From assembly GCF_035982055.1 (NCBI RefSeq), contig NZ_CP108427.1, forward strand, positions 9,051,001 through 9,115,000: DNA of 64,000 nt. The letters are read 5' to 3'. Within the stretch, counting starts at the first letter, position 1. The number at the start of each line of letters is the position of its first letter. Below, one piece after another: positions 27,518 to 42,942 of this stretch. The DNA is from Streptomyces sp. NBC_01288 (GTDB lineage: Bacteria > Actinomycetota > Actinomycetes > Streptomycetales > Streptomycetaceae). The translations under genes and the position numbers were made by a program. Below the pieces are notes generated by a model. That model worked only from the letters and a program-made list of their open reading frames with translations. It searched no databases and was not told the origin of the DNA.

Positions 27518-27677
27518 GGAATACATCCGCGATTTTCCAGGTGGTTCACTTCGCGGGTGGTACGCCTTTGCAAGCACTTGGTTGCGACCGTGTAACTTTG
27601 GATCTTATGCTCGTCAACAAATTGTGTCGGTCGTCGGTGTCGGAAAATGTCGCGGGAGAGTCGGGAGACGCGGATCA

Positions 27678-28343
27678 ATGGCAATGACAGTGCTCGTGTG
27701 CGATTCGGTTCCTGTCGTGCGGGACGGCCTCAAATCTCTCCTTTCCGCGGCGCCGGACGTGACGAGAGTCTCCGCGACCGGCAGTGCCGTCGAATGTCTC
27801 GTGATGACCCGGAAATTAAAGCCCGACGTGTTGATAACCGACCTCAGTCCCGAAGGCATGGACGGGATCGATTTCGTTCACCGGGTGATCCGGGAGAACG
27901 CGCGGGAGCGGGACGGGCGGCCCGGGGTCGTGGTCTTCGCCAGTGACATGACGGACCGGGTCATCGAGAGCCTGTTACGGGCCGGAGCGATCACCCTCCT
28001 CGAAAAGGAGACCGGGCGCGAAATGCTTCTCACCGCGGTGAGGGCGGCGGCCCGGGGCGAGGTCATGCTCGCGCCCCATGTGACCGGAAGGCTCGTCCGC
28101 TGGTTCAGGAGCCGGGAGTTCGGGCCGGATCGCGACCCCGATCCCCAGGTCGAGTCACTCACCCCGCGCGAGCGGGAGATCCTCGTGCTCGTGGGGGAGG
28201 GCCTGCCGATCGAGGAGATCGCCGCGAAGCTCGTCATCGGCTCGGCGACCGTCCGTACGCACATCTACCGGCTGCGGCACAAGCTCAACGTGCGGGACCG
28301 CGCTCAGCTCGTCTCCTTCGCCCACAGCGCCGGCTTGCTCTGA
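27678..28343 (+). CDS. Orphan LuxR-type response regulator with two TTA codons
   Basis: 221-residue regulator: receiver-like domain with Asp55 (VLITDLSPEGMDG), a conserved-Lys-like position in LLEKETG, and a C-terminal LuxR helix-turn-helix (LTPREREILVLVGEGLPIEEIAAKLVIGSATVRTHIYRLRHKL). The usual N-terminal DD pair is CD here, so Mg binding and phosphorylation may be altered. No kinase adjoins. Leu47 and Leu100 are TTA codons (27816-27818, 27975-27977), implying bldA-dependent translation typical of secondary-metabolism regulators. Placed just left of the exporter and carrier-protein cluster. Its last 40 bp overlap the exporter gene tail to tail. Confidence 0.88.
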   Translation: MAMTVLVCDSVPVVRDGLKSLLSAAPDVTRVSATGSAVECLVMTRKLKPDVLITDLSPEGMDGIDFVHRVIRENARERDGRPGVVVFASDMTDRVIESLLRAGAITLLEKETGREMLLTAVRAAARGEVMLAPHVTGRLVRWFRSREFGPDRDPDPQVESLTPREREILVLVGEGLPIEEIAAKLVIGSATVRTHIYRLRHKLNVRDRAQLVSFAHSAGLL

Positions 28344-29353
28344 TCACTCTTCTCGTTCCGGCTGCCCTGAGAGGGTTCCTCACTGCCCTCAGGGAGTTCC
28401 TCGTCGGACTCCGCCGACGGTGAACCCGGTAGCTCGATCAGGAACATCGCCGCCACCACCAACGCCCCGCCGACCAGCGTGGAGACCGTGAGGCGTTCGC
28501 CGCCGACGAGCACGGCGAACAGGCCCGCGAAGACCGGCTCCATGGTCAGGACCACCGCGGCCTGCGTCGCGGTCACATGCTTCTGCGCCCACGTCTGCAC
28601 CATGTACGCGAACGCCGAGGCCAGCACCGCCGTGACGAGGACCGCCATCCAGGTGCTGCCGCTCTGGGGCGGCCGTACGCCATGAGGGACCGCGCCGATC
28701 AGACACATCACCGACGCCGTCGTCAGCTGGACCACGGTGAGGGCGTAGGCGTCCCGGCCCGGGGACCAGCGGCCCAGCGCCAGCAGGTGCAGCGCGAAGA
28801 AGACCGCGCACAGCAGCGTGAGCGCCTCACCCGAACCGAACGAGACCCCGCTGAGCGTGATCAGCGCCAGGCCCGCGGTCGCCGTCATGGCCGCTGCCCA
28901 GGCCGTCAGGGACAGGTGCTGGCGGAACAACGCCCAGGCCAGCAGCGGGGTGATCACCACGAACAGGCCGGTCAGGAATCCGCTGACGGCCGCCGACGTG
29001 TGCTGCAGGCCGAGGGTCTGGAGGATGTACGACATCCCCAGCAGGAACCCCGCCCCCGCACCGCGCGCCAGCGTGCCCCGGTCGATACGCCGTAGGACCG
29101 ACGGGCGGATCGCCGCCATCACCACCGCGGCGAGGGCGAACCGCCAGGTCAGGAAGTCGAAGACGGGCATGCCCACGGTGGCGTCCTTGACCACCAGGAA
29201 CGTGGCGCCCCAGACGGCCGTGACGAGCAACAGCCCGACCACGGCGGTCAGTCGTAACCTGCTGTGCGCCGGATCGCTGTGCGCCGGATCGCCGCGCACC
29301 GAATCGTCGCGCGCCGGCCGGAGCCGGAACCTGCCGTTCATGACGCCGTTCAT
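28304..29353 (-). CDS. DMT-superfamily (EamA) transporter with a TTA codon
   Basis: 349-residue, ten-helix drug/metabolite transporter with two EamA repeats (LLLVTAVWGATFLVVKDATVGMPVFDFLTWRFALA and the ATQAAVVLTMEPVFAGLFAVLVGGERL half). The start overlaps the MarR stop (ATGA) and AAAGGA precedes it. Residues 23-31 contain a DPAHSDPAHS duplication. Leu33 is a TTA codon (complement 29255-29257), so expression should depend on bldA. MarR-DMT pairing and position suggest an exporter for the neighbouring pathway's product, i.e. self-protection (inference). Confidence 0.88.
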   Translation of the reverse strand: MNGVMNGRFRLRPARDDSVRGDPAHSDPAHSRLRLTAVVGLLLVTAVWGATFLVVKDATVGMPVFDFLTWRFALAAVVMAAIRPSVLRRIDRGTLARGAGAGFLLGMSYILQTLGLQHTSAAVSGFLTGLFVVITPLLAWALFRQHLSLTAWAAAMTATAGLALITLSGVSFGSGEALTLLCAVFFALHLLALGRWSPGRDAYALTVVQLTTASVMCLIGAVPHGVRPPQSGSTWMAVLVTAVLASAFAYMVQTWAQKHVTATQAAVVLTMEPVFAGLFAVLVGGERLTVSTLVGGALVVAAMFLIELPGSPSAESDEELPEGSEEPSQGSRNEKSDQSKPALWAKETS

Positions 29354-29898
29354 GACGGTCCTTTCGTCCGGATGACGACCGCGCCGTCGACTGCCGTGTC
29401 GACCGGGCACGTCTGCTTGGGGCACTCGTCCAGGGCGCACATGCGGCAGATGCGTTGGCCGTGATCGGCGTCGGTCGTCAGATGGGCCAGCATCCGTTCC
29501 AGGAGGCCGGTCAGCACCGTTCTCTCGCGCGGTCGGAGCACGGACATCGCGTCCTCCATCAGACCGCCGCGCAGCTCCAGTAGCCGCTTCGCCTCACGTG
29601 TTCCCTCCGACGTGAGGAAGATGGCCACCTTCCGGCCGTTGGCCCCCGGTTCCCGCCGCGCCTTGCCGTCGCGTTCGAGCCGGTCGACCAGGCGGGTGGC
29701 CGCGGACTGTGTCAGACCGAGCGGCCCGGAGATCTGGTCGACGCCCGCGCCGGGCTCCTGCAACAGGTACGTGAGCGCGGCCGGCGTCGCCCCGCTCTGC
29801 CCGGACGTGCTCTCGCTCGCCACCCGCTGCGCGTCGCCCAGCGCGGTGACCAGAGCCCCGAGCAGGTTTCCGGTACGGCCGTCCAGTGAAGCGTCCAT
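29350..29898 (-). CDS. MarR-family regulator with C-terminal cysteine cluster
   Basis: 182-residue MarR winged-helix regulator: DQISGPLGLTQSAATRLVDRLERDGKARREPGANGRKVAIFLTSEG is the recognition helix and wing. The C-terminus adds CRMCALDECPKQTC (four Cys as C-x2-C-x4-C-x4-C), which could bind zinc or sense thiol reactivity. MDASLDG is chosen because the promoter predicts transcription starting at this ATG; upstream ATGs lie in the operator. Encodes the likely repressor of the co-transcribed EamA exporter. Confidence 0.87.
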   Translation of the reverse strand: MDASLDGRTGNLLGALVTALGDAQRVASESTSGQSGATPAALTYLLQEPGAGVDQISGPLGLTQSAATRLVDRLERDGKARREPGANGRKVAIFLTSEGTREAKRLLELRGGLMEDAMSVLRPRERTVLTGLLERMLAHLTTDADHGQRICRMCALDECPKQTCPVDTAVDGAVVIRTKGPS

Positions 29899-30722: not shown

Positions 30723-30956
30723 CGGTCCTCCTTTCTCTTTCGGACCGTAGCACTGAGACGGTGTGCTGTTGAAGGGTGCGTCCGGCGTCATCATTCTGAT
30801 TACGGCGTGAGCTGCGGGCCTTCGTCGGATTATTAGCCGTACGGCTGTTGCCGTCCTCGAAATTGGCACGCCGATGTAATCGTCTCGGGGAGGTTTCCCG
30901 GAGGTACGAGTGTTTGACTCCAGGGAGACGAGATCCCTACGAGCAGGGGAGTGATC
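30723..30956. promoter_or_regulatory. Divergent promoter region of the sulfotransferase gene and carrier-protein operon
   Basis: 234 bp. It contains the perfect 12-bp palindrome AGCCGTACGGCT (30835-30846), a rightward promoter candidate TTGACT (30914-30919) - N18 - TACGAG (30938-30943), and an AGGGA-N7-TCCCT repeat (30922-30938) between them. The promoter places the start near 30950, close to the first gene. Confidence 0.5.
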
Positions 30957-31577
30957 GTGATCGATACCTCGGCTGCCTCGGCCTATCGCGCCGTGGATCT
31001 GGCGCCGTACTCCAACAACGTCGGCATTTCCGCCGCCGGGCACACCTCGCGGGGTGCTTTCAATGTCTGGGGCAACTCGTTCCCGGCGGAACACCTGCCG
31101 GAATCGGGGGCTCCGGTGAGCGTCGGCGATGTTCCGTTCTGTTTCCCGCGGGTGGGGGTGGGAGACGACAACGTGCGCTGCGACGGGCAGTTCATCGCGG
31201 TCGAGGCGGGGCGTTTTGACTGGCTGCATCTGCTGACCGCGTCCGAACGGCGATCCGAGGACGTCGTGGAGATGCACTTCGCGGACGGCAGCGTCGATCC
31301 CGAGTGGCTGCGCGTCTCGGACTTCTGGGCCGCGCCCGCGTGGTTCGGCGAGACGACCGCGTTCGCGACGCCCGTGATGCACTATCCGCACCATGTCCAG
31401 CGGGGCGTTTCGGCCATGCTGTGGTCGCAGCGCGTCCCCGTCACCCGCCGGGCGGACCTGAGCGGATTCCGGCTGCCGCGTCATGCCGCCGTCCACGTCT
31501 TCGCCGCGACCTTGCAGAAGGCCGCGTTCTCGCGGGAGCCCGTCACCATCGCCCCGGAGGCCGGCCATGACCAGTGA
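30957..31577 (+). CDS. Small unknown protein, candidate aziridine-forming subunit
   Basis: 206-residue soluble protein beginning MIDTSAASAYRAVDLAPYSNNVGISAAG (GTG start with AGGGGAG 5 nt upstream; a GTG two codons earlier is also possible). Predicted beta-rich; DLAPYSNNVGIS...FNVWGNSFPAEHLP resembles the opening of a beta-sandwich domain found at the ends of some glycosidases, but no catalytic motif is known. It overlaps the next gene by 11 bp, so the two are co-expressed subunits. Beside a sulfotransferase and a LysW pathway, the pair corresponds in position and size to Vzb10/11 and AziU3/AziU2, reported to form aziridine by sulfate elimination. Homology is inferred from context, not demonstrated. 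Confidence 0.65.
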   Translation: MIDTSAASAYRAVDLAPYSNNVGISAAGHTSRGAFNVWGNSFPAEHLPESGAPVSVGDVPFCFPRVGVGDDNVRCDGQFIAVEAGRFDWLHLLTASERRSEDVVEMHFADGSVDPEWLRVSDFWAAPAWFGETTAFATPVMHYPHHVQRGVSAMLWSQRVPVTRRADLSGFRLPRHAAVHVFAATLQKAAFSREPVTIAPEAGHDQ

Positions 31578-32640
31578 CTTCGCGACGCCCGCGGTGACCG
31601 ACTCCGTACCGGACTCCGTCCAGACCGAGGCACCCCTCCTCTGGTACCGGGACCCGATCAGCTGCCTCCAGTCCACCTTCGCGTCGGTGCTGGCCCGGGC
31701 CGGTATGAACCCGCTGTTCGCGCTCGGCGCCGGCTGGGAGTTCCTGTACGTCCCGGACGACGTGCGGTCGGAGGAGTTCTACTACCCCTGCCGCTACGAG
31801 GGCGACCTGGGCCGCAGCCTCTTCCCCCACCACGACGTGAGTTCCTCGTGGTGGCGCCCGGCGGACCCGGACGATCCGCTGCGCGAGATACGCGAGGCGA
31901 TGACGGAGGGGCGGCTGGTCATCGCCGCCGTGGACAACTTCTTCCTCCCGTTCAGGCCCGCCTTCGGCGATGTCCACGCCGCACATCTACTGGTCGTCCA
32001 CGGCCTCGACGAGCGGCGCGGGCTCGTTCACGTCTCCGACGCCATGCCGCCCGCGTTCCAAGGGCCCATCCCGCTCGACGACTTCCTGAAGAGCTGGGGG
32101 TCGGCGAACCCGCAGGATCAACAGGACGCGTTCTTCAGCGATTCGGAGATCAGCCGCCGCTGTCTGTCCGTGTCGGTCGGATCCGCCGGAAGCGGTGGCG
32201 CCGACCCAGGTCCCGAGCAACTCGCCGGCTGGCTGCGGGCCAACCTGGAGCGGTTCGACGACCCCGGCACCGTCGCCGGACTCGGCGGACTGGCCGGACT
32301 CGACGGCTGTCTCAGCGAGTTGACCTTCCGGGCGCGAGCCGGTGAGGTGCGCGCGCTGCAGGAGCTGTACCCCTTCGGCTGGGGCATGCAGGCCCAAGCC
32401 GCCCTGCACGGCGAGCTGTTGCGCGACCGGGGGGCCGCGTGGCGGTCACCGGCGCTGGCCGGAGCCGGGCGGGCCGTGGAGAGCGTGGCCCACGCGTGGA
32501 CCCCGCTGCGGATCACCGCCGCCCACGGACTCGACGACCCGGCCGCCGCGGCGGACGACCTGCACCGGCACGCGGGAGTCCTGCGCTGGCGCCACACCGA
32601 GGCGATCGAATCCGTCCGGCGGGCCCTGGACGAGCTGTGA
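31567..32640 (+). CDS. BtrH-N-like protein, candidate aziridine-forming partner subunit
   Basis: 357-residue protein. The N-terminal half resembles the papain-like BtrH_N fold: Cys33 in [18 protein letters not shown], His137/His140 in [14 protein letters not shown], Asp158 in VHVSDAMPP. The C-terminal half is helical. In butirosin synthesis BtrH transfers an acyl group from a carrier protein, so an alternative role is releasing or transferring the LysW-bound product. Overlap with the preceding gene and the sulfotransferase next door favour the two-subunit aziridine enzyme. Distinguishing the two needs a profile search against AziU2/Vzb11. Confidence 0.65.
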
Positions 32641-32723: not shown

Positions 32724-34064
32724 ATGAGCAAGCTCGCAGTACTGGGCGGAACAGCCGCCGTACCACCGGCACGACGTCAGGTCGAGTGGCCGGTGATCGA
32801 GGACGACGACCGCAAGGCCGTGCTCGACGCGCTGGACGGCGGTCGGCTGGTCTCCGACACCGACGGAGAGACGCCGGTGAGCCTGCTGGAGCGCGAGTGG
32901 GCCGAGCGGTTCGGCTACGGCCACTGTGTCGCCGTGGCCAACGGAACCGCCGCGCTCTCGCTGGCCCTGGCCGCGCTCGGCGTCGGACCGGGTGCCGAAG
33001 TCATCGTCCCCGCACTGAGTTTCATCGCCACCGGACTCGCCCCGCTGCACAACCTGGCCGTGCCCGTTTTCGCCGACATCGACCCGGTGACCTTCACCAT
33101 CGACCCGGACGACATCGAGCGGCGCATCACGCCGAGGACCGCCGCGATCATCCCCGTCCATCTGCACGGTGCCCCCGCCGACATGGACCGGATCAACCAA
33201 CTCGCGCGCCGGCACGGCCTCGCCGTGATCGAGGACGCCGCGCAGGCGCCCGGAGCGACGTACCGGGGGCGTCCGGTGGGCGGGTTGGGGGACATGGGGG
33301 CGTTCAGTCTCCAGGTCACCAAGAACATCCCCACCTGCGGAGAGGGCGGTCTGCTGGTGACCGGTGACGCCGGCCTCGCGCAGTCCGCGCGCCGGGCACG
33401 GCAGTTCGGCGAGGACATCGAGAGCGGCAAGGACCGCGACTACGTCTCCCACCGGCTCGGCTGGAACCACAAGATAAACGCCCTCCAAGCAGCCTTCACC
33501 CGGGCGCAGTTGACCCGATTCGACGGCTACGAGCGGTCCCGGCAGCGCAACATCACCCGTTTCCTGGACCGGATCTCCGAGCTGCCGGGACTGACCGTGC
33601 CCACCGCGCCGCCCGGCACCACCCATGTCTGGCACATCCTGCGCTTCCGCCTCGACCCGGCCGCCGCCGGTCTGCCCGGCGTCACCCCGGAGCGCTTCCG
33701 TGACGCGTTGCGGCGGGTGATGCGGGCCGAAGGGGTGCCGATGTCGCGGTACCAGCTGATGCCACTGCCGGACCAGACCGTCTTCCGGGACCGGACCGGG
33801 TTCGGACACGGATATCCCTGGGCGGCACTCCAGGACGAAGCCGAAGGAGCCCAAGGGCGAGACGGAGAAGGGGAGTTCACCGGTTCTCCGGCCCAGGACG
33901 ACGACTACCCCGTCACCCGTGATGTCCTCCGCGACTCCCTCACCCTCCAGAAGCGGCACCTCAACCCCGGCAGCGGTGAACTCCTCGACCGTTACGCCGA
34001 CGCCTTCGAGAAGACCTGGCAACACCTCGACGTGGTGGGGCAGTTCGCGGGGGTGAGCGCATGA
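32724..34064 (+). CDS. DegT/DnrJ/EryC1-family PLP aminotransferase
   Basis: 446-residue PLP-dependent aminotransferase. The aldimine-forming Lys is Lys200 ([15 protein letters not shown]); [11 protein letters not shown] binds the phosphate and EDAAQAPGA holds the pyridine-binding Asp. A 40-residue insertion near 375-410 ([24 protein letters not shown]) is unusual and acidic. In related carrier-protein pathways an aminotransferase aminates the ketone made by the transketolase, giving the C6 amino group; that role is inferred. GAGAGGAC precedes the ATG; ATGA overlap with the next gene. Confidence 0.92.
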
Positions 34065-34933
34065 CCACGGCCGGCGCAGAGGCCACCGGGGCGATCGGGG
34101 CCACCCGGCTCGGCGAACTGCGCGAGAGTGCCACCCGTATCCGCGAGCACGTCGCCGACATGTGCGCGGGCCCCGAGGGAGGCCATCTCGGCGGCGCGTA
34201 CTCGGCCGCCGACATCATGACCGCCCTCTACTTCGACGTCATGAACGTCGATCCGGCCCGGCCGGACGCCCCCGAGCGGGACCGTTTCGTGCTCAGCAAG
34301 GGCCACGCCGCCGTCGGCCTGTACGCGACCCTCGCCGAGCGCGGCTTCCTGCCCCTCGACGAACTCGCCACCTACGGCCGCCCCGGCAGCCGGTTGATGG
34401 GCCACCCGGTCCGCGCGGTACCCGGCGTCGAGGCGGCCACCGGGTCGCTCGGTCACGGTCTCGCGCTGGGCTGCGGCTTCGCGCTCGGCGCCCGCCTGGA
34501 CGGCGTCGACAGCAGGACGTTCGTCCTCATGGGCGACGGCGAACTCCAGGAAGGCTCGGTGTGGGAAGCGGCAACAGGCGCCGCCTCACTGGGACTTGAC
34601 CGGCTGGTCGCCGTCGTGGACCGCAACTCCCTCCAGTTGACGGGTGATACGGACTCCATCGCCGCCATGGAACCCCTCGCCGACCGCTGGCGCGGCTTCG
34701 GCTGGGCCGTCCAGGAGGCCGACGGCCACGATCTCGGGGCGCTCGTGCGCGCGCTCGGCACCGCGCCGTGGGAACCGGGCCGCCCCAGCGTCCTGATCGC
34801 CCGCACCGTCAAGGGCCGCGGCCTGCCCTTCCTGGAGGGGCGCACCGCGTGCCACTACGTCACCTTCTCCGAGCGCAACCACGCCAAGGCCCGCGCTGTA
34901 CTGGGCCGTTCAAGGAAGGAGGACACCAGGTGA
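34061..34933 (+). CDS. Transketolase, N-terminal (TPP-binding) subunit
   Basis: 290-residue half-transketolase. The TPP/Mg motif [14 protein letters not shown]...VVDRNSL (158-190) is complete, and [13 protein letters not shown] and [12 protein letters not shown] are typical. Paired with the C-terminal subunit by a GTGA overlap. It would transfer a two-carbon unit, presumably onto the LysW-bound glutamate semialdehyde, extending C5 to C7. Its place between the aminotransferase and lysW argues against a pentose-phosphate role. Confidence 0.93.
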
Positions 34934-35901
34934 CCACCACCGCAGCTCCCACCGCGGCCACTACGGCAGCGGCTCCCGCCGTGACCCGTGAGGCCTATCG
35001 CGACCGGCTGATCCCGCTGCTCGGGACCGATCCCCGGCTGATGTGCCTGGACACCGACACCGGACTGTTCGGTCCCGGCCACATCGAGGCGGCGGGAGAC
35101 CAGTACGTCAACCTCGGTATAGCGGAACACAATCTGATGGGCATCGCCGCGGGCCTCGCGTTCGGCGGGCGCATGCCGTTCGTCAACACCATGGCGGGCT
35201 TCGCCAGTTCGCGGGCGCTGGAGGCCGTGAAGGTCGACATCGCCTATCCCGCGCTGCCCGTACGGATCATGGCGACGCACGGCGGACTGGCCGCCGGCCA
35301 TCTCGGGCCAACGCACCACGCGTTGGAGGACCTGGCCGTCATGCGGACGCTGCCCGCCATGACGGTGGTCGTGCCCGCCGACGCGGCCGCCACCGCCGCC
35401 GTGGTCGAGCAGAGCCTCGACCTGCCGGGCCCGCTCTACGTACGGCTGGGCCGCAAGGCCACCCCGGCCGTCCCGAGCGACGAACCGATGGTCATCGGCC
35501 GGGCACAGCGGTTGCGCGAGGGCACCGACGTCGTCCTCGTCGGCTGCGGCCCGTACCCGGTGGCCGCATGCACCGAAGCAGCCGATCTGCTGGGCGAGTC
35601 GGGCATCTCCGCCGCCGTCCTCAACATGCACACCCTGAGCCCGCTCGACACCGAGTCCCTCTGTACGGCGGCCTCGGGCGCCTCGCTCGTCGTCACCGTG
35701 GAGGAGCACTGGCGCAGCGGCGGCCTCGGCGGTGCGGTCTGCGAAGCCTTGGCCGAACGGCAGCCGGTGCGGGTGCTGCGGATCGGGATGCCGGACCAGT
35801 TCTCCGACACCGTCGGCGGCCAGGAGTACCTGCTCGACCACTACGGCATCACGGCCGCGCGCACCGCAGCCGCCGTGACCGCGGCCCTCGAAACCAAATG
35901 A
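34930..35901 (+). CDS. Transketolase, C-terminal (pyrimidine-binding) subunit
   Basis: 323-residue partner half. It contains the catalytic Glu region NLGIAEHNLMGIAAGLA, THGGLAAGHLGPTHHALEDLAVMR and the C-terminal transketolase domain (VEEHWRSGGLGGAV). GTG start overlapping the previous stop. The N-terminal 17 residues are Ala-Thr-rich and disordered. Together with the preceding gene it forms one split transketolase, as in other secondary-metabolite clusters. Confidence 0.93.
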   Translation: MTTTAAPTAATTAAAPAVTREAYRDRLIPLLGTDPRLMCLDTDTGLFGPGHIEAAGDQYVNLGIAEHNLMGIAAGLAFGGRMPFVNTMAGFASSRALEAVKVDIAYPALPVRIMATHGGLAAGHLGPTHHALEDLAVMRTLPAMTVVVPADAAATAAVVEQSLDLPGPLYVRLGRKATPAVPSDEPMVIGRAQRLREGTDVVLVGCGPYPVAACTEAADLLGESGISAAVLNMHTLSPLDTESLCTAASGASLVVTVEEHWRSGGLGGAVCEALAERQPVRVLRIGMPDQFSDTVGGQEYLLDHYGITAARTAAAVTAALETK

Positions 35902-35954: not shown

Positions 35955-36131
35955 ATGACGACCGCTACCCAGACCTGCCCGGAGTGCGACGGCCCGGTGG
36001 ACGTCGGCGACACCGTCCGCGCCAGCGAGGTCATCGAATGCCCCGAGTGCCGCAGCGAGTTGGAGGTCGTGGCCACCGAGCCGCTGCTGCTCGCCCTGGC
36101 CCCCGAGGTCGAAGAGGACTGGGGGGAGTAA
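35955..36131 (+). CDS. lysW: Amino-group carrier protein (LysW type)
   Basis: 58-residue acidic carrier protein. A zinc ribbon is formed by Cys8, Cys11, Cys29 and Cys32 (CPEC...CPEC), and the C-terminus is EVEEDWGE, the LysW signature whose terminal Glu side chain is joined to the amino group of the substrate. It carries glutamate-derived intermediates through phosphorylation, reduction and later steps and protects the alpha-amino group. Followed 4 bp later by its ligase lysX. The gene is shorter than most ORF callers' threshold. Confidence 0.95.
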   Translation: MTTATQTCPECDGPVDVGDTVRASEVIECPECRSELEVVATEPLLLALAPEVEEDWGE

Positions 36132-36135
36132 CGAG

Positions 36136-37038
36136 GTGGTCTCCTCCACAGCGCCCCGGACGGCGTTGCTGGCTTCCAGGACGCGCTTCGAGGAGAAGCG
36201 CCTCCTGGAGGCCCTGGACCGCCGGGGCATCCCCTGTACGGCCATCGACACCCGCACCGTCCGCCACCACCTGCACGACACCCCGCCGCCGTGGGACCTG
36301 GTGCTCAACCGCGAGATCTCGGCGACCAAGGCCCTGTACGCGGCCCTCACCTACGAATCCGCTGGCGTCACCGTCATCAACTCCGCTACGGCGATCGAGA
36401 CTTGCGGCGACAAGTGGCGCACCTCGCTCGCGCTGCGCGCCGCCGGGATCCCCACACCGCCCGCCGCCCTCGCCCTCACGGCACAGGCCGCGGAAGAGGC
36501 GGCCGAGGAGATCGGTTACCCGGTGGTCCTCAAACCCCTGGTGGGTTCCTGGGGCCGGCGGGTCGCCCTGATCCCGGACGCCGCCGCGCTGCGGACGGTG
36601 CTGGAGTACAGCGAGGCGCTGCCGTCACCGCTGGCCAAACTGGCCTATCTGCAGCGGTACGTCGACAAGCCCGATCGCGACATCAGGGTGATCGTCGTCG
36701 GCGGCATCCCGATCGGCGCCATGTACCGCACGTCGGACGGCTGGCGGACCAACGTGGCGCGCGGGGCGACGACCACGGCCTGCCCCCTCACCGACGACCT
36801 CGCCAAACTCGCGGCCACCGCGGCCCGGGAGACCGGCGCGGACCTCGCGGGAGTCGATCTCGTCGAGGATGCGGACGGCGGCCTCCAAGTCCTCGAAGTC
36901 AACCATGGAGTCGAGTTCAAGGGCTTCCAGGAAGCACACACGGACCGCATCGACGTCGCCGAACTCATCGTGGAGCGCCTGGTGTTGGGGGCGGACAGGC
37001 GGATGGACAGGGAGACGGTCAGGGAGGTGGGCGCATGA
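36136..37038 (+). CDS. lysX: LysW ligase (LysX/RimK-type ATP-grasp)
   Basis: 300-residue ATP-grasp ligase that attaches glutamate's amino group to the C-terminal Glu of LysW. ATP-grasp landmarks: ATCGDKWRTSLALRAAGIPTP, VVLKPLVGSWGRRV, YLQRYVDKPDRDIRVIVVGG, and the metal-binding DLVEDADGGLQVLEVNHGVEFKGF. MYRTSDGWRTNVARGATT resembles the LysX/ArgX substrate-specificity loop. GTG start with GGGGGAG upstream inside the lysW stop region; ATGA overlap to lysY. Confidence 0.93.
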   Translation: MVSSTAPRTALLASRTRFEEKRLLEALDRRGIPCTAIDTRTVRHHLHDTPPPWDLVLNREISATKALYAALTYESAGVTVINSATAIETCGDKWRTSLALRAAGIPTPPAALALTAQAAEEAAEEIGYPVVLKPLVGSWGRRVALIPDAAALRTVLEYSEALPSPLAKLAYLQRYVDKPDRDIRVIVVGGIPIGAMYRTSDGWRTNVARGATTTACPLTDDLAKLAATAARETGADLAGVDLVEDADGGLQVLEVNHGVEFKGFQEAHTDRIDVAELIVERLVLGADRRMDRETVREVGA

Positions 37039-38060
37039 TCAGGGCCGCGGTGTTCGGTGCCGCCGGATACATCGGCGGCGAACTGTTGAGGCTGCTGCTC
37101 GGCCACCCCGAGGTGGAGCTGACGGCCGCCGTGTCGTCCCGGTTCCCCGGCAAACGCCTCGACAGCGTCCACCCCAACCTCCGCTCGGCGACCGACCTCA
37201 CCTTCACCACCCCCGAGCGGGCCGACGACTGCGACGTGGTCTTCCTGGCCACCCCGCACCGCTCCACCATGGATCTCGTGCGGCACTGGGCGGACCGGAC
37301 GGACCTGCTGATCGACCTATCGGGCGACTTCAGGCTCCGCGACACGGACGTGTACGAGCGCTACTACGGAGTGCCGCACGAGGCGCCGGAGTTGCTCGAC
37401 CGGTTCGTCCCCGGCATACCGGAACTGCACCGCGACCGGCTGCGCGCCGCCCGGCTGATCAGTGTCCCGGGCTGCATGGCGAACGCCGCGATCCTCGCAC
37501 TGCACCCGCTGGCTGCCCACCAACTCGCCCTCTCACCAGTGCTGTTGGACGGGCGTACCGGATCCAGCGGTTCGGGCGCCTCCGCCGGCGACTCCAACCT
37601 GCACGCCGAACGCAGCGGCGCCCTAAGGGTGTTCGCCCCCGCCACCCACCGGCACGAGGCGGAAGTCGCCCAGCACACCGGGCTCGACGCCCGGATGACG
37701 GCGACCGGCGTAGAGGCCGTACGGGGCGTGCAGGTCGTCTGCCACACCGAGGTGCCGGAGGGCGTCGAGGAGCGGGCGGTACGGGCGGCGTACCGCGAGG
37801 CCTACGCCGACGAGCCGTTCGTCCGCATGGTCGCCCACAAGCGGGGCACCTACCGCTATCCCGAGCCCAAGATCCTGCTCGGCTCCAACTACTGCGACAT
37901 CGGCCATGTCTGGGACGACGTCTCGCGTCGCCTGGTGGTCGTCGCCGCCCTCGACAACCTCGTCAAGGGCGGCGCGGGCAACGCCGTGCAGTGCCTCAAC
38001 GTACGCATGGACTGGCCCGAATCGTACGGACTGTCCTTTCCCGGGCTGCACCCGGTGTGA
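37035..38060 (+). CDS. lysY: LysW-gamma-glutamyl-phosphate reductase (LysY/ArgC type)
   Basis: 341-residue NADPH-dependent semialdehyde dehydrogenase. The N-terminal Rossmann motif is GAAGYIGGELLRLL, the catalytic Cys147 lies in SVPGCMANAAI and the His region in HRHEAEV. It would reduce LysW-bound glutamyl phosphate to the semialdehyde, the acceptor for the transketolase. ArgC homology alone would allow an arginine role, but the lysW-lysX-lysZ neighbours make the carrier-bound function far more likely. Confidence 0.93.
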   Translation: MIRAAVFGAAGYIGGELLRLLLGHPEVELTAAVSSRFPGKRLDSVHPNLRSATDLTFTTPERADDCDVVFLATPHRSTMDLVRHWADRTDLLIDLSGDFRLRDTDVYERYYGVPHEAPELLDRFVPGIPELHRDRLRAARLISVPGCMANAAILALHPLAAHQLALSPVLLDGRTGSSGSGASAGDSNLHAERSGALRVFAPATHRHEAEVAQHTGLDARMTATGVEAVRGVQVVCHTEVPEGVEERAVRAAYREAYADEPFVRMVAHKRGTYRYPEPKILLGSNYCDIGHVWDDVSRRLVVVAALDNLVKGGAGNAVQCLNVRMDWPESYGLSFPGLHPV

Positions 38061-38095: not shown

Positions 38096-39028
38096 ATGGG
38101 CGCGCCCCAGTTGGTCGTCGTCAAGTGCGGCGGCAACAGCGATGTGAACGCCGCCGGTATCTGCGCGGACGTCGCCGGTCTGGTGAAGGAGGGCCACCGT
38201 CTGGTGGTGGTGCACGGCGGATCGGCGGAGATCGACCGGCTGGCCGACGAACTCGACGTACCGCAGCGGCGTTTGGTCTCGCCCGACGGGGTCTCGGCCC
38301 GGCACACCGACGAAGCCACCCTGGAGGTGGTGACGCTGGCGCTGGCCGGCTCGGTGAAGCCGAAGCTCGTGAGCGAGCTGCTGGGCCGGGGTATCCCCGC
38401 CGTGGGCCTCACCGGTCTCGACGGCGGACTCGTGCTGACCCGTCGCAAGAAGGGGCAGAAGGCGGTCGTCGACGGGCGCACCGTGGTCGTGCGCGACGAC
38501 CACAGCGGCCGGATCGAGGCGGTACGCGGGGAGTTGATCGCGACCCTGCTCGCGCACGGGTACGTTCCCGTCGTGTCGCCGCCCGCCGCCGATGAGCACG
38601 GCGATCGGGTCAACGCCGACGCCGACCGGATCGCGGCGGCACTCGCGGCCGAACTCGACGCGGACCGGCTGGTGTTGCTCACCGGAGCGGCGGGGGTGCT
38701 CGCCGACCCGGACGACGAGGACAGCGTCCTGGCCGACTGCGAAGTCGCGCAGGCGGGCGCGCCGGGGGAGTTCGCCCGGGGCGGCATGGCACTCAAACTC
38801 GTCGCCGCCCGGGAGGCGTTGCTCGGCGGCGTCGGCCAGGTGACCGTCGCCGACGGGCGGGGTGAGGGGGCGGTCGGTGAGGCGCTGCGGGGGGCCGGGA
38901 CGGACGTGCGGATCACACCTTCGCCCGACGCGGGAACGGAGACCCGGCCGACGTCCCGTCAACACCCCGATCAGAAACAGGAATTGTCGGAACAGGACGT
39001 GCCGGAACAGACAGGGAGTGACCGATGA
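38096..39028 (+). CDS. lysZ: LysW-glutamate kinase (LysZ/ArgB type)
   Basis: 310-residue amino-acid-kinase-fold enzyme phosphorylating the side-chain carboxylate of LysW-bound glutamate. VVVKCGGNSDVNAAG, VVVHGGSAEIDRLA, GLDGGLVLTRRKKGQKAVVDG and NADADRIAAALAAELDADRLVLLTGAAGVL are characteristic. The C-terminal 35 residues (SPDAGTETRPTSRQHPDQKQELSEQDVPEQ) are a charged tail absent from usual members. AAGGGAG precedes the ATG; ATGA overlap to the peptidase gene. Confidence 0.93.
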   Translation: MGAPQLVVVKCGGNSDVNAAGICADVAGLVKEGHRLVVVHGGSAEIDRLADELDVPQRRLVSPDGVSARHTDEATLEVVTLALAGSVKPKLVSELLGRGIPAVGLTGLDGGLVLTRRKKGQKAVVDGRTVVVRDDHSGRIEAVRGELIATLLAHGYVPVVSPPAADEHGDRVNADADRIAAALAAELDADRLVLLTGAAGVLADPDDEDSVLADCEVAQAGAPGEFARGGMALKLVAAREALLGGVGQVTVADGRGEGAVGEALRGAGTDVRITPSPDAGTETRPTSRQHPDQKQELSEQDVPEQTGSDR

Positions 39029-40161
39029 CCACCGAAACCGCCGTACCGCCTGCGGCCCTCGCCGGTACCGATCCCGGTGCCGCTGTGGACCTGCTGCGGT
39101 CCATGTTGGAGATCCCCTCCCCGTCCGGCGAGGAGGGCCCCTTGGCCCGTCATCTGGCCGATGTCATGAGGGGATGGGGGCTCACCGCCCGCATCGACGA
39201 CGCGGGCAACGTGATCGGCGAGACCCCGGCCCGTCCCGGCCCGCGCATCATGCTGCTGGGCCATATGGACACCGTCCAGGGGCAGTTGGCCGTACACCTC
39301 GAAGGCGGCCGGCTGCACGGCCGTGGCGCGGCCGACGCCCAGGGGCCCCTCGCGGCCATGGTGTGCGCGGTCGCCGCCCACCGTGGCTTCCCCGGACAGC
39401 TCGTGGTCGTAGGAGTCGTGGAGGAGGAGACCCCGAAGTCGCGTGGAGCGGTGCACATCGGGCGGACCCTCGCGCGGCCGGACGCACTGATCGTGGGGGA
39501 GCCCAGCGGGTGGCCGGGGATCGTCATCGGCTACAAGGGGAAGCTGGACCTTGAGTATCGGGTCGGCTGCCCTGCCACGCACCCGAGCAACCCGGTCGAG
39601 AAGGCCACCGAGTCGGCCGCCGCGTTCTGGCAGGACGTGCTGGAGCTGCTCGGACCCGAGCAGGGGCACGCGTCGTTCGCCACCCCGGGTGCGACCCTGG
39701 TCGGGATGCGCGGGGACATCACCGAGGCGGAGCTGGAGGTCAGTATCCGTACGCCCGTCGGATTCGACCAGGACGGGTTCGTCGCCGCTCTGCGCGAGCG
39801 GGATCAAGTCCGGGGCAGGGGCGGCCGGTTGGCGGTCGTGAACGGGGTGCGGGCGGTGGAGGCGGAGCGGCGCGGGCCGGTGGTGCGTGCCCTCAGCGCG
39901 GGGATCCGGTCCATCGGCGGGACCCCTCGGCCGACGCTGAAGACCGCCACCTCCGACATGAACACCCTGGCCGAGGTCTGGGACATCCCCATGGCGACCT
40001 ACGGCCCCGGGGACAGCGCGCTGGACCACTCCGACGAGGAGCACATCCTCGTCGACGACTACCTGCGCGGTATCGCCGTCCTGACCACGGCACTGGGCGA
40101 GTTGACCACCCTGCCGACCGGTGACGCCGGTTCCGCCGGTGAACTCGGGGGCGAGTCATGA
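39025..40161 (+). CDS. lysK: LysW-product releasing M20 peptidase (LysK type)
   Basis: 378-residue dinuclear-metal peptidase of the M20 family. Metal ligands are visible: His80 and Asp82 (LLGHMDTV), Asp104 (GRGAADAQGP), the catalytic Glu/ligand pair in VVEEETPKSRGA (133-135), Asp/Glu in GEPS and a C-terminal His. In LysW pathways LysK hydrolyses the bond between the LysW C-terminal Glu and the finished amino acid. Overlaps lysZ and cysC by ATGA. It should therefore act late, after or before ring formation. Confidence 0.9.
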   Translation: MTTETAVPPAALAGTDPGAAVDLLRSMLEIPSPSGEEGPLARHLADVMRGWGLTARIDDAGNVIGETPARPGPRIMLLGHMDTVQGQLAVHLEGGRLHGRGAADAQGPLAAMVCAVAAHRGFPGQLVVVGVVEEETPKSRGAVHIGRTLARPDALIVGEPSGWPGIVIGYKGKLDLEYRVGCPATHPSNPVEKATESAAAFWQDVLELLGPEQGHASFATPGATLVGMRGDITEAELEVSIRTPVGFDQDGFVAALRERDQVRGRGGRLAVVNGVRAVEAERRGPVVRALSAGIRSIGGTPRPTLKTATSDMNTLAEVWDIPMATYGPGDSALDHSDEEHILVDDYLRGIAVLTTALGELTTLPTGDAGSAGELGGES

Positions 40162-40739
40162 GCGTTGGGCAATCCACCCTGGCGAAGCCGGAGTTCTGCA
40201 CCTGCTGGCCCGGCGCGACCGTATGGCTGACCGGGCTGCCGAGCGCGGGTAAGTCCACCATCGCCGCCGCGCTCGCGGAGCGGCTGCGCCAGGACCGGAG
40301 GCGGGTGGAGGTGCTCGACGGTGACGAGATCCGCACGTTCCTGTCGGCCGGGCTCGGCTTCTCCCGCGAGGACCGGCACGTCAACGTCCAGCGGATCGGC
40401 CTGGTCGCCGAAGTGCTCGCGCGCAACGGGGTGTTGGTCCTGGTGCCGGTGATCGCGCCGTACGCGGACTCCAGGTCGTCGGTCCGCCGGCGCCACGAGA
40501 AGTCCGGGACGAAGTACTTGGAGGTACATGTCGCGACCCCGGCCTCCGTCTGCTCGGAGCGCGACGTCAAGGGCCTGTACGCCCAGCAGGCGGCCGGCCG
40601 GATCTCCGGACTGACTGGCGCGGACGACCCCTACGAGGAGCCCGCGCACCCCGATCTGCGGATCGACGCGCACGCCGAGCGGGCCGTCGAATCAGTGGAC
40701 GCGCTGCACGCGTTGCTCGTGCGAAAGGAGTTGGCATGA
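40158..40739 (+). CDS. cysC: Adenylylsulfate (APS) kinase
   Basis: 193-residue APS kinase converting APS to PAPS. Walker A is GLPSAGKST (26-34); the DGDEIR, GFSREDRHVNVQRIG and IAPYADSR segments are typical. The usual DPYEEP motif for substrate closure is present. Overlaps both neighbours (ATGA). With cysD and cysN it makes a dedicated PAPS supply for the sulfotransferase at 29943-30722. Confidence 0.95.
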   Translation: MSVGQSTLAKPEFCTCWPGATVWLTGLPSAGKSTIAAALAERLRQDRRRVEVLDGDEIRTFLSAGLGFSREDRHVNVQRIGLVAEVLARNGVLVLVPVIAPYADSRSSVRRRHEKSGTKYLEVHVATPASVCSERDVKGLYAQQAAGRISGLTGADDPYEEPAHPDLRIDAHAERAVESVDALHALLVRKELA

Positions 40740-41671
40740 CTGTCGCCGCCAAGCACATGGCCGGCACGGAGAACCCGTATGCGCTGCCGCACTTGGACGC
40801 GCTTGAGTCGGAGGCGGTCCATATCCTCCGTGAGGTGGCGGGTGAGTTCGAGCGGCCGGTGATCCTCTTCTCCGGCGGCAAGGACTCGATCGTCATGCTG
40901 CACCTGGCGTTGAAGGCGTTCGCGCCCGCGCCGGTGCCGTTCTCGCTGCTGCATGTGGATACGGGACACAACTTCCCCGAGGTCATTGAGTACCGCGACC
41001 GTGTGGTCGTCGCACATGGGTTGCGGCTCCATGTGGCTTCCGTACAGGACTACATCGACCGCGGTGCGCTGCGCGAACGCCCCGACGGCACCCGCAACCC
41101 GCTCCAGACCGTGCCGTTGACCGAGAAGATCCAGAGCGAGAAGTTCGACGCGGTCTTCGGTGGGGGTCGTAGGGACGAGGAGAAGGCGCGGGCGAAGGAG
41201 CGGGTGTTCTCGCTGCGGGACGAGTTCGGGGCGTGGGAGCCGCGTCGGCAACGACCCGAGCTGTGGAATCTCTACAACGGGCGGCACGCGCCCGGCGAAC
41301 ACGTCCGCGTGTTCCCGCTGTCCAACTGGACCGAGCTGGACGTGTGGCAGTACATCGCCCGCGAGGGCATCGACCTCCCCGCCATCTACTACGCCCATGA
41401 GCGCGAGGTCTTCCGACGGGGCGAACTCTGGCTGGCGCCCGGGAGTTGGGGCGGGGCGGGGGACGGCGAGACCGTCGAGAAGCGACAGGTGCGGTACCGG
41501 ACCGTCGGCGACATGTCCTGCACCGGCGCGGTCGACTCCGGCGCCGTCACCATCGAGCAGGTCATCGACGAGATCACCGCCTCCCGGCTGACCGAGCGGG
41601 GCGCCACCCGGGCCGACGACAAGCTGTCCGAGGCCGCCATGGAGGACCGCAAGCGCGAGGGGTACTTCTGA
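40736..41671 (+). CDS. cysD: Sulfate adenylyltransferase small subunit
   Basis: 311-residue ATP sulfurylase catalytic subunit of the PP-loop family: SGGKDS (46-51), the FGGGRRDEEKARAKER segment and EKRQVRYRTVGDMSCTGAV. It makes APS from ATP and sulfate, driven by the GTPase subunit CysN. Start overlaps cysC; only 2 bp separate it from cysN. Its presence without CysH or sulfite reductase genes in this operon shows the sulfate goes to sulfation, not to cysteine. Confidence 0.96.
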   Translation: MTVAAKHMAGTENPYALPHLDALESEAVHILREVAGEFERPVILFSGGKDSIVMLHLALKAFAPAPVPFSLLHVDTGHNFPEVIEYRDRVVVAHGLRLHVASVQDYIDRGALRERPDGTRNPLQTVPLTEKIQSEKFDAVFGGGRRDEEKARAKERVFSLRDEFGAWEPRRQRPELWNLYNGRHAPGEHVRVFPLSNWTELDVWQYIAREGIDLPAIYYAHEREVFRRGELWLAPGSWGGAGDGETVEKRQVRYRTVGDMSCTGAVDSGAVTIEQVIDEITASRLTERGATRADDKLSEAAMEDRKREGYF

Positions 41672-41673
41672 TC

Positions 41674-42942
41674 ATGGATACGACCATCGGCACATTGCGC
41701 TTCGCCACCGCGGGCTCCGTCGACGACGGCAAGTCGACCCTCGTCGGACGGCTGCTGCACGACTCCAAGTCGGTCCTCACCGACCAACTGGAGGCCGTGG
41801 AAAGGGCGTCCGCGAACCGGGGCCAGGACGGCCCCGACCTCGCCCTCCTCACCGACGGCCTGCGCGCCGAACGCGAGCAGGGCATCACGATCGACGTGGC
41901 GTACCGCTACTTCGCCACCCCCCGACGGCGGTTCATACTCGCCGACACCCCCGGCCATGTGCAGTACACCCGCAACATGGTCACCGGCGCCTCCACCGCC
42001 GAGCTGACGGTGATCCTCGTCGACGCCCGCAACGGCGTCGTCGAACAGACCCGCCGCCACGCCGCGATCGCCGCGCTGCTGCGCGTCCCGCACGTCGTCC
42101 TCGCCGTCAACAAGATGGACCTCGTCGACTACCGCGAGCCCGTATTCGCCACCATCGCCGAGGAGTTCACGGCCAGCGCGAGCGAACTCGGCATCCCCGA
42201 GGTCACCGCGATCCCCATCTCGGCGCTGGCCGGCGACAACGTCGTAGAACCGTCCGCGCACATGGACTGGTACGGCGGGCCGACCGTTCTCGAACACCTG
42301 GAGACCGTCCCCGTCGGCACCGACCTCGCGCGTGCGGCGGCTCGTTTCCCCGTGCAGTACGTCATCCGTCCGCAGAGCGACGAGCACCCCGACTACCGGG
42401 GATACGCCGGGCAGATCGCCTCCGGCGTGCTGCGCGTCGGTGACCCGGTCACCGTCCTGCCGTCCGGTCTCACCAGCACGATCACCGGTATCGACGTCCT
42501 CGGTACGCCGGTCGACCGGGCCTGGGCGCCGCAGTCGGTGACGCTTCTCCTCGCGGACGACATCGACATCTCGCGTGGCGACCTCATCGCCCCCAGCGCG
42601 CAGGCACCGGCCACCACGCAGGACGTCAGGGCCACGGTCTGTCATCTCAACGAGCGTCCGCTGCACGTCAGTTCACGTGTCCTGCTCAAACACGGCACCC
42701 GTACGGTCAAGGCCGTCGTGCGGGAGCTCCCGCACCGCGTCGACCTCACCCACGGCCTGGCCCACGACACCGACCCCGGCGAGTTCGCCGTCAACGACAT
42801 CGGCTCGATGGTGCTGCACACCGCCGAGCCGCTCCCGTTCGACGCGTACGCCGACTCCCGCCTCACCGGTTCCTTCCTCCTGATCAACCCCGCCGACGGG
42901 GCCGTGCTCGCGGCGGGGATGTGCGCGGGTGCCGATGGGTGA
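41674..42942 (+). CDS. cysN: Sulfate adenylyltransferase large subunit (GTPase)
   Basis: 422-residue EF-Tu-like GTPase that powers CysD. G1 GSVDDGKST (14-22), G2 region EREQGITIDVAYRYF, G3 DTPGH, G4 NKMD and G5 region SALAGDN are intact, followed by two beta-barrel domains. Not fused to CysC, which is separate upstream. Last gene of the operon; a strong terminator follows 12 bp downstream. Confidence 0.96.
   Translation: MDTTIGTLRFATAGSVDDGKSTLVGRLLHDSKSVLTDQLEAVERASANRGQDGPDLALLTDGLRAEREQGITIDVAYRYFATPRRRFILADTPGHVQYTRNMVTGASTAELTVILVDARNGVVEQTRRHAAIAALLRVPHVVLAVNKMDLVDYREPVFATIAEEFTASASELGIPEVTAIPISALAGDNVVEPSAHMDWYGGPTVLEHLETVPVGTDLARAAARFPVQYVIRPQSDEHPDYRGYAGQIASGVLRVGDPVTVLPSGLTSTITGIDVLGTPVDRAWAPQSVTLLLADDIDISRGDLIAPSAQAPATTQDVRATVCHLNERPLHVSSRVLLKHGTRTVKAVVRELPHRVDLTHGLAHDTDPGEFAVNDIGSMVLHTAEPLPFDAYADSRLTGSFLLINPADGAVLAAGMCAGADG

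Follow-up and report, generated by a model that had tools for sequence, protein, structure and literature searches.

Two overlapping genes of Streptomyces sp. NBC_01288, called U2 and U3 here, very probably encode a two-subunit aziridine synthase of the AziU3/AziU2 (Vzb10/11) type, acting in a pathway through sulfated diamino-dihydroxy-heptanoate (DADH) as proposed below. The genes lie in a stretch of 64,000 nucleotides, the window, which is positions 9,051,001-9,115,000 of a single-contig genome of 10.56 Mb. The aziridine is the reactive three-membered ring of some DNA-damaging antibiotics, and its enzymatic formation is rare. In this analysis the assignment draws on homology, folds, residue conservation and the content of the surrounding gene cluster. 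The reaction of AziU3/U2 has been shown by others; the activity of this pair, the roles of its residues, the order of steps and the end product are proposed by analogy.

The two genes are arranged as follows.

30951..31577, + strand: U2, AziU2-type small subunit (phmmer match to AziU2 7wuw_A, fold match to 8gs1_A, 24/24 family-invariant residues)
31567..32640, + strand: U3, AziU3-type large subunit, with a BtrH_N/papain-like domain (residues 32-158) and a helical C-terminal part (phmmer match to AziU3 7wuw_C, fold, BtrH_N)

U2 has 208 residues if read from the GTG at 30951 and 206 if read from the GTG at 30957, which is better spaced from a GGGG ribosome-binding site at 30946-30949. U3 has 357 residues and is matched only once in its own genome. 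Both reading frames are intact, and they share the 11 bp at 31567-31577. An earlier sequence-only reading, made without database searches, had given products of 206 and 357 residues overlapping by 11 bp, between a sulfotransferase and carrier-protein genes. The overlap is exact, with 206 residues counted from GTG 30957. The setting holds as well: a sulfotransferase gene lies on one side, and an aminotransferase gene, two transketolase genes and then the LysW-type carrier genes on the other. The existence of the pair is far beyond chance, with sequence matches in the PDB at E values of about 1e-49 and 1e-66 and relatives in many actinomycete genomes.

Homology to a known aziridine synthase

Both subunits are homologous over nearly their full length to AziU2 and AziU3 (also named Azi28 and Azi29) from the azinomycin pathway of Streptomyces sahachiroi (PDB 7WUW, 7WUX and 8GS1). 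When each protein was searched as a single sequence against the PDB with phmmer (E up to 1), U2 matched AziU2 (7wuw_A; E 2.5e-49, residues 5-195) and Azi28 (E 2.1e-49) and no others. U3 matched AziU3 (7wuw_C; E 1.2e-66, residues 15-353) and Azi29 (E 6.6e-66), again with no others. NCBIfam and PADLOC searches gave no match for either protein.

The folds are also the same. AlphaFold2 models of the single chains were built from alignments of relatives (predicted local distance difference test scores, pLDDT, of 92.4 and 92.7). The U3 model aligns with the AziU3 crystal structure over 326 residues (Z 44.8, 1.7 Å) and the U2 model with AziU2 (8gs1_A) over 193 residues (Z 30.0, 2.8 Å). Identity to AziU3/AziU2 is about 42-43% across the aligned structures.

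Conservation can be judged from alignments of the relatives described below. The U3 alignment comprises the window and all of the 54 relatives but one (L058), which makes 54 sequences. The U2 alignment holds 50, the window and 49 of 53 U2 relatives. Four were dropped: L035, L037 and L078, whose called coordinates crossed a stop codon, and L060, for which the call gave no more than a piece of 132 residues. All 34 columns that are invariant in U3 are conserved in AziU3, and all 24 that are invariant in U2 are conserved in AziU2/Azi28.

The sequence-only reading had put the pair forward as a candidate two-subunit aziridine synthase, to be given up if no similarity to AziU3/U2 could be detected, and had named structure prediction as a check. 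Plain phmmer alone already matches both subunits, and the single-chain models reproduce the AziU3 and AziU2 folds. Together with the shared invariant residues, this supports the candidate. U2 and U3 may form a heteromeric complex, for which the overlap of the genes gives indirect support.

The primary paper on AziU3/U2, the best understood case of an enzyme that makes aziridines, reportedly describes an SN2-like attack with amine and sulfate antiperiplanar, at a dihedral angle near 180 degrees. It is also said to state 'no similarities to known enzymes' and a 'new protein fold overall'. Vzb10/Vzb11, from the pathway to vazabitide A, are described as catalysing the same reaction in an amino-group carrier protein pathway. 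Vazabitide A is said to be a peptide product, while the window cluster has no nonribosomal peptide synthetase (NRPS). According to two reviews, AziU3/U2 acts on sulfated DADH and forms the aziridine ring with loss of sulfate (PMC9570651, PMC12559475). A figure legend in the AlphaFold 3 paper gives O7-sulfo-DADH as the ligand in PDB 7WUX and terms the fold novel.

Relatives of the two subunits in other enzyme families

AziU3/AziU2 and Vzb10/11 had been taken in the sequence-only reading to be without known relatives. This does not stand: U3 belongs among the BtrH_N/papain-like proteins, and U2 has homologs in a module that occurs in carbohydrate-active enzymes. The Pfam family BtrH_N (PF14399) matches window U3 at residues 32-158 (E 1.8e-22, 80.5 bits against a cut-off of 29.7), all 54 U3 sequences (E <= 0.01) and AziU3 itself (E 4.8e-13, 49.9 bits against the same cut-off). 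Peptidase_C39_2 matches 22 of the 54 and DUF4872 five. Automatic annotation already labels AziU3-type proteins by BtrH_N. A literature search that left out most subscription journals found no paper naming both BtrH and aziridine, and the link may be noted elsewhere. PMC10318531 classes BtrH_N among papain-like enzymes, with no mention of aziridine in the passages concerned.

Cys33, Asp123, His140 and Asp158 are invariant in all 54 U3 sequences. In the U3 model, Cys33 begins a helix (33-44), His140 opens a strand and Asp158 closes the next one, which is the papain arrangement. The BtrH_N-like Cys33/His/Asp158 set pointed out by the earlier reading is therefore real: the domain spans it from end to end, and the profile alignment identifies the histidine as His140. 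This alignment, between the U3 profile and 11 ordinary Streptomyces BtrH_N proteins (hhalign 98.9%, E 3e-17, 298 columns), pairs Cys33, Asp123 and His140 with Cys15, Asp109 and His125. It scores 129.9; the best of 20 column shuffles reaches 22.8, and a reversed profile 20.2. Asp158 falls two columns off from the acid of the 11 proteins, likely because of a longer hairpin, since the spacing between the His and the Asp in U3 varies (18 in 50 rows, 16 in four).

After AziU3, the best fold matches of the U3 model are CtaG, from the closthioamide pathway (Foldseek E 2.8e-8; Z 21.9, 290 residues, 3.9 Å), and CcbD, from the celesticetin pathway (Foldseek E 1.1e-5; Z 21.0, 296 residues, 4.3 Å). Both have the full-length fold and the triad positions in common with U3, at 11-13% identity in the structural alignments. 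The next matches are far below, at Z of about 10 for a designed helical protein and phytochelatin synthase and 8-9 for C39-type peptidases. CtaG is titled 'Butirosin biosynthesis protein H N-terminal domain-containing protein' in the PDB, and its entries include the variants C11A, H128A and D144N, which suggests the same triad. Sequence profiles gave less. The U3 profile, run with hmmsearch against PDB sequences, found AziU3/Azi29 only, plus a keratin at E 2.5; the BtrH_N profile reached CtaG at just E 0.51, and enoyl-acyl carrier protein reductases at E 0.011 in poor alignments.

The 17-residue spacing between Asp123 and His140 is found in all 54 U3 sequences and equals that between Asp114 and His131 of CcbD. 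Neither CtaG nor CcbD is known to have a U2-like partner. A review (PMC12945683) describes CcbD as using a Cys-His-Glu triad in a ping-pong transfer that forms an amide from a carrier-bound acyl group, with Asp114, Leu129 and the catalytic His131 recognising the amine-bearing moiety of the acceptor. This job is unlike aziridine formation by AziU3-type proteins. U3 has an amide-synthase scaffold, whose amine-activating half suits an enzyme that has to activate an amine for attack on C7.

In the sequence-only reading, the BtrH_N-like set could have meant acyl transfer from the carrier instead of aziridine synthesis. AziU3 itself carries the domain and the residues, so the triad is no evidence for a different function, and an aziridine synthase and a BtrH-like protein are not two exclusive choices. 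BtrH-type acyl transfer from the carrier is predicted to be an unlikely function of U3.

U2 can be traced in a similar way. Its alignment profile was searched in 396 genomes of the phylum (E <= 0.001) and matched in 16; clear U2 genes, by score, occur in two (the own genome and G721), and most other matches fall within frames of more than 600 residues. Seven of these large proteins were scanned: two are GH92 enzymes, one a GH29 fucosidase and two GDSL esterases, one is very large and contains ThuA among other domains, and the last has an NPCBM-associated domain only. Aligned with eight of the modules, U2 shows homology to them along the greater part of its sequence (hhalign 99.9%, E 2.1e-31, 183 columns). 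The score is 197.7, while 20 column shuffles stay at or below 18.0 and the reversed profile gives 15.9. The PDB folds that follow AziU2 are mostly carbohydrate-binding jelly rolls at Z of about 9, which is little proof taken alone. The jelly-roll module is a domain of larger enzymes, whereas U2 is a stand-alone protein with invariant residues of its own, among them Glu99, Arg100, Arg101, Tyr145, Pro146 and His148. On sequence grounds, U2 looks like a carbohydrate-active-enzyme module that has been recruited. Judged from their families, the enzymes that bear it are presumably secreted. AziU2 itself matched no Pfam family. The Pfam matches of U2 to MCLC (E 0.12) and DUF3060 (one of 50 members, E 0.074) are below cut-off or weak and were discounted.

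U2-like modules also occur in the same genome outside the window, near the C-termini of two GH92-type enzymes (2500809-2501366 and 1736800-1737324). Four related loci carry a short second U2-like gene near LysX, of 93-151 residues as called and without a U3 partner; these look like shortened U2 paralogs.

L049:4371-4799, second U2-like gene
L053:16369-16824, second U2-like gene
L054:15095-15376, second U2-like gene
L056:15038-15319, second U2-like gene

The gene cluster and its NRPS-free relatives

Thirteen genes, from U2 to CysN, run in the same direction with gaps of -11 to 83 bp, and the sulfotransferase gene is divergent from them. Besides the pair, the cluster and its surroundings contain the following genes.

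27609..28343, + strand: LuxR-type response regulator, candidate pathway regulator (PF00196, PF00072)
28304..29353, - strand: EamA-type transporter, subtype-specific, candidate exporter (PF00892, E 1.7e-34); in all four sister loci
29350..29898, - strand: MarR-like regulator, subtype-specific (PF01047, E 3.8e-5, slightly under cut-off); relatives in L059, L060 and L061, not L062
29943..30722, - strand: sulfotransferase, proposed O7-sulfation, start approximate (PF19798 Sulfotransfer_5, E 2.5e-19)
32724..34064, + strand: DegT-family aminotransferase, proposed C6 amination (PF01041, E 4.8e-86)
34061..34933, + strand: transketolase, N-terminal half (PF00456, E 1.2e-49)
34930..35901, + strand: transketolase, C-terminal half (PF02779 / PF02780)
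35955..36131, + strand: LysW-type amino-group carrier protein, ending EVEEDWGE (PF21344, E 8.7e-14)
36136..37038, + strand: LysX-type ligase, loads the carrier (TIGR02144 above cut-off)
37035..38060, + strand: ArgC/LysY-type semialdehyde dehydrogenase (PF01118, PF22698)
38096..39028, + strand: ArgB/LysZ-type kinase (NF010659, [LysW]-aminoadipate kinase, above cut-off)
39025..40161, + strand: LysK-type carrier-releasing hydrolase (PF01546; TIGR01902 above cut-off)
40158..40739, + strand: adenosine 5'-phosphosulfate (APS) kinase CysC, for supply of 3'-phosphoadenosine 5'-phosphosulfate (PAPS) (PF01583, E 9.3e-56)
40736..41671, + strand: CysD, sulfate adenylyltransferase small subunit (TIGR02039)
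41674..42942, + strand: CysN, sulfate adenylyltransferase large subunit (TIGR02034)

The LysW-type pathway set is complete, with a carrier ending in EDWGE (as do all 35 carrier proteins listed), LysX, kinase, reductase and hydrolase. The hydrolase scores 320 bits against NF003367 ([LysW]-lysine hydrolase), under the cut-off of 363. No convincing second copy of the carrier gene was found in the genome (best other match E 0.29). Further CysD copies exist elsewhere in the genome, one full-length and 87% identical and one in two pieces (87-89%), so the cluster copy seems to serve as a dedicated supply. Every gene needed to make and sulfate DADH is present with an open frame, and by gene content the cluster is complete up to the free aziridine amino acid. 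A promoter scan (0 promoter-like sites) and a terminator scan (3 terminator-like sites against 3.4 expected) were uninformative. An aldehyde dehydrogenase gene (PF00171) follows the cluster on the opposite strand, at 43008-44531, and is probably not part of it.

In the proposed pathway, carrier-bound glutamate would be reduced and then extended by two carbons by the transketolase. Amination by the DegT enzyme would give DADH. The divergently encoded sulfotransferase would sulfate O7 with PAPS from the in-cluster CysC/CysD/CysN, and the pair would then close the ring. The probable end product is a free aziridine amino acid, for example 2-amino-5-hydroxy-5-(aziridin-2-yl)pentanoic acid, because no NRPS is nearby; the EamA protein possibly exports it.

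U3 is matched in 31 of 392 sampled Streptomyces genomes (E <= 0.001), and in 28 of them, the own genome included, the match spans at least 299 of 357 residues. A contig search gave 34 loci from Streptomyces, Kitasatospora, Actinacidiphila, Micromonospora, Herbidospora, Catellatospora, Plantactinospora, Sphaerisporangium, Actinocrispum, Kibdelosporangium and two metagenome-assembled genomes. Seven same-genome duplicates (L063, L068, L084-L087 and L092) were dropped from 61 loci (L032-L092), which leaves 54 relatives and, with the window, 55 loci. A U2 gene was found in 53 of the 54 relatives' loci; the exception is a 3.5 kb contig with U3 at the contig end. By blastp clustering, the sulfotransferase family is present in 43 of the 55.

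An NRPS-family gene is present in 42 of the 55 mapped loci. The one member scanned by Pfam (L077) is of condensation-adenylation-thiolation (C-A-T) type, and the longest member per locus has 510-1860 residues, some cut by locus ends. Thirteen loci are without the family: the five of the window clade, L045/L090, L034, and L042, L053, L058, L065 and L073. The last five are truncated on one or both sides where their contig stops and are uninformative on this point, and L034 has a condensation match about 14 kb away. A strict motif count for adenylation domains was 0 at every locus, NRPS-bearing ones too, and was discarded for family clustering. Eight changes of NRPS label were counted on the tree, a figure that is not usable, as contig-end loci and the AziU3 row, which has no locus attached, were scored 'none'.

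In the U3 tree the window falls into a single clade (support 100/99) with L059 (S. hokutonensis), L060 (Streptomyces sp. P3), L061 (Actinacidiphila oryziradicis) and L062 (S. xylophagus). All five have the EamA gene, which is in no other mapped locus, and four of the five have the MarR gene. A member of the LuxR-type family is found in L059, L061 and L062 and was not called in L060. The NRPS family is absent from all five loci, and a search of the five genomes gave no condensation domain closer than 60 kb to the pair. The nearest is 154 kb away in the own genome and 133 kb away in that of L060; L059, L061 and L062 have none on the pair's contig (the L059 contig is 429 kb, with the pair 62 kb from one end). 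The whole draft genome of A. oryziradicis has two condensation matches (E 2e-18 and 1.8e-11). In a second NRPS-free lineage, L045/L090, the nearest condensation match is about 148 kb and more than 1 Mb away. An NRPS in or near the cluster, which would mark an NRPS-assembled aziridine antibiotic of the azinomycin/vazabitide kind, was thus not found for the window. The simplest reading of this absence is that the window pathway probably stops at the free aziridine amino acid.

L060:7282-18563 has its sulfotransferase, ArgC and LysK-type hydrolase called in pieces, perhaps through sequencing errors. In L061:16368-18401 the kinase and the LysK-type hydrolase form one 677-residue frame, either a real fusion or a sequence error; owing to this joined frame, the family label 'LysK' in the clustering stands for ArgB or LysK.

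Other groups of loci differ in their content. Three Streptomyces loci (L046-L048), whose U3s cluster with AziU3 (support 100/100), are azinomycin-like, with type I polyketide synthase (PKS; scanned in L047), NRPS-family, P450, thioesterase and acyl-CoA-dehydrogenase-like genes. The surroundings of the window cluster yielded no such genes. The acyl-CoA-dehydrogenase-like family (f11) occurs in 30 of the 55 loci; L060 has only a distant homolog of a general kind (28-36% identical), and the window has one of this sort too, at about 5580-6683, 25 kb from the pair. A role for f11 in C3 oxidation for the azabicyclic ring is a guess, because several NRPS-bearing loci do not have it. L043, L044, L081 and L088 carry an arginase-family gene (f28; Pfam on the L088 copy) together with f29 and f30, which are also conserved; this hints that the product is related to guanidine. 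In four loci (L039, L040, L041 and L072) the carrier gene is flanked by a member of another family (L041:4110-6008, 633 residues in L041), and the member scanned gave no Pfam match at E <= 0.001.

Proposed ring closure, rival explanations and significance

In the proposed mechanism, U3 and U2 would hold sulfo-DADH in position for attack of the C6 amine on C7, with expulsion of sulfate. The His140-Asp158 pair and Asp123 of U3 would probably bind and deprotonate the amine, a role proposed because the catalytic His131 and Asp114 of CcbD contact the amine-bearing part of the acceptor. U2 would probably complete the pocket for sulfate or substrate. We infer in this way the roles of His140, Asp158, Asp123 and Cys33 of U3 and of the invariant ERR (99-101) and His148 of U2.

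Several points weigh against these proposals. Triad invariance is no proof of a role in aziridine formation. Sequence profiles alone do not reach CcbD and barely reach CtaG (E 0.5), so the link to both rests on fold. The peptide-free product is argued from absence, and an unlinked ligase is possible. In another system, sulfotransferases give aziridines by cyclisation after sulfation (PMC12559475, a review), so a ring can close without a pair of the AziU3/U2 type.

Other explanations of the pair can be considered. It might be a homolog with lost or changed activity, inactive or acting on another aminosulfate, as the clade neighbourhood (EamA, MarR, no NRPS) differs from that of other mapped loci. 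This is improbable: both subunits retain all invariant residues, the genes for DADH and sulfation are present and open, and the gene set recurs in the sister loci, even if some genes are fragmented in L060. Still less credit can be given to U3 as a BtrH-type acyltransferase that takes an acyl group from the carrier onto Cys33 and makes an amide, with U2 as a helper and the ring made by something else. The BtrH_N match with its entire Cys/His/Asp set, the profile match to ordinary BtrH_N proteins and the full-length likeness to the amide synthases CtaG and CcbD would all agree with such a role. However, the carrier here is of the LysW type, which binds its cargo via an amide and not a thioester. 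No condensation domain was found within 150 kb, the U2 gene accompanies nearly all the relatives (53/54), and the same features are found in AziU3, a reported aziridine synthase (PMC9570651, PMC12559475).

Alternatively, the ring may close by covalent catalysis, in which Cys33 would displace sulfate at C7 and the thioether so formed would in turn be displaced by the C6 amine. Cys33 is invariant (54/54) and occupies the papain nucleophile position, at the start of helix 33-44 and aligned with the BtrH_N cysteine. C7 is not stereogenic, so a double inversion would not be revealed by known products. A thioether is, however, a poor leaving group, and the published view of AziU3/U2 is said to be direct SN2-like attack with amine and sulfate antiperiplanar. 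This course is the least probable of those considered. An aziridine synthase that closes the ring by direct attack of the amine remains the preferred explanation.

The synthase looks assembled from two known parts. A tentative joint reading, which has perhaps one chance in three of being right, can be given for its origin. Aziridine synthases may have arisen when a carrier-dependent, papain-like amide synthase with an intact Cys-His-Asp triad joined a glycosidase-type jelly-roll module. The triad would now close the ring, His-Asp deprotonating the amine and Cys placing or transiently holding C7. The NRPS-free pathway, in the window clade and separately in L045/L090, would release a free monocyclic aziridine amino acid. 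If true, this would be a natural product class not met in the literature searched.

Both subunits of the aziridine synthase are now placed in recognisable families. These relationships supply concrete residues to mutate, and they suggest a route by which a protease-like enzyme that forms bonds took up the making of strained rings. Among natural gene sets for an aziridine amino acid in this comparison, the NRPS-free clusters of the window clade and L045/L090 rank with the smallest, which makes them practical starting points for aziridine building blocks and for learning the role of the free amino acid. Nearly full-length U3 matches in 28 of 392 Streptomyces genomes indicate that the chemistry is probably commoner than the few known products suggest.

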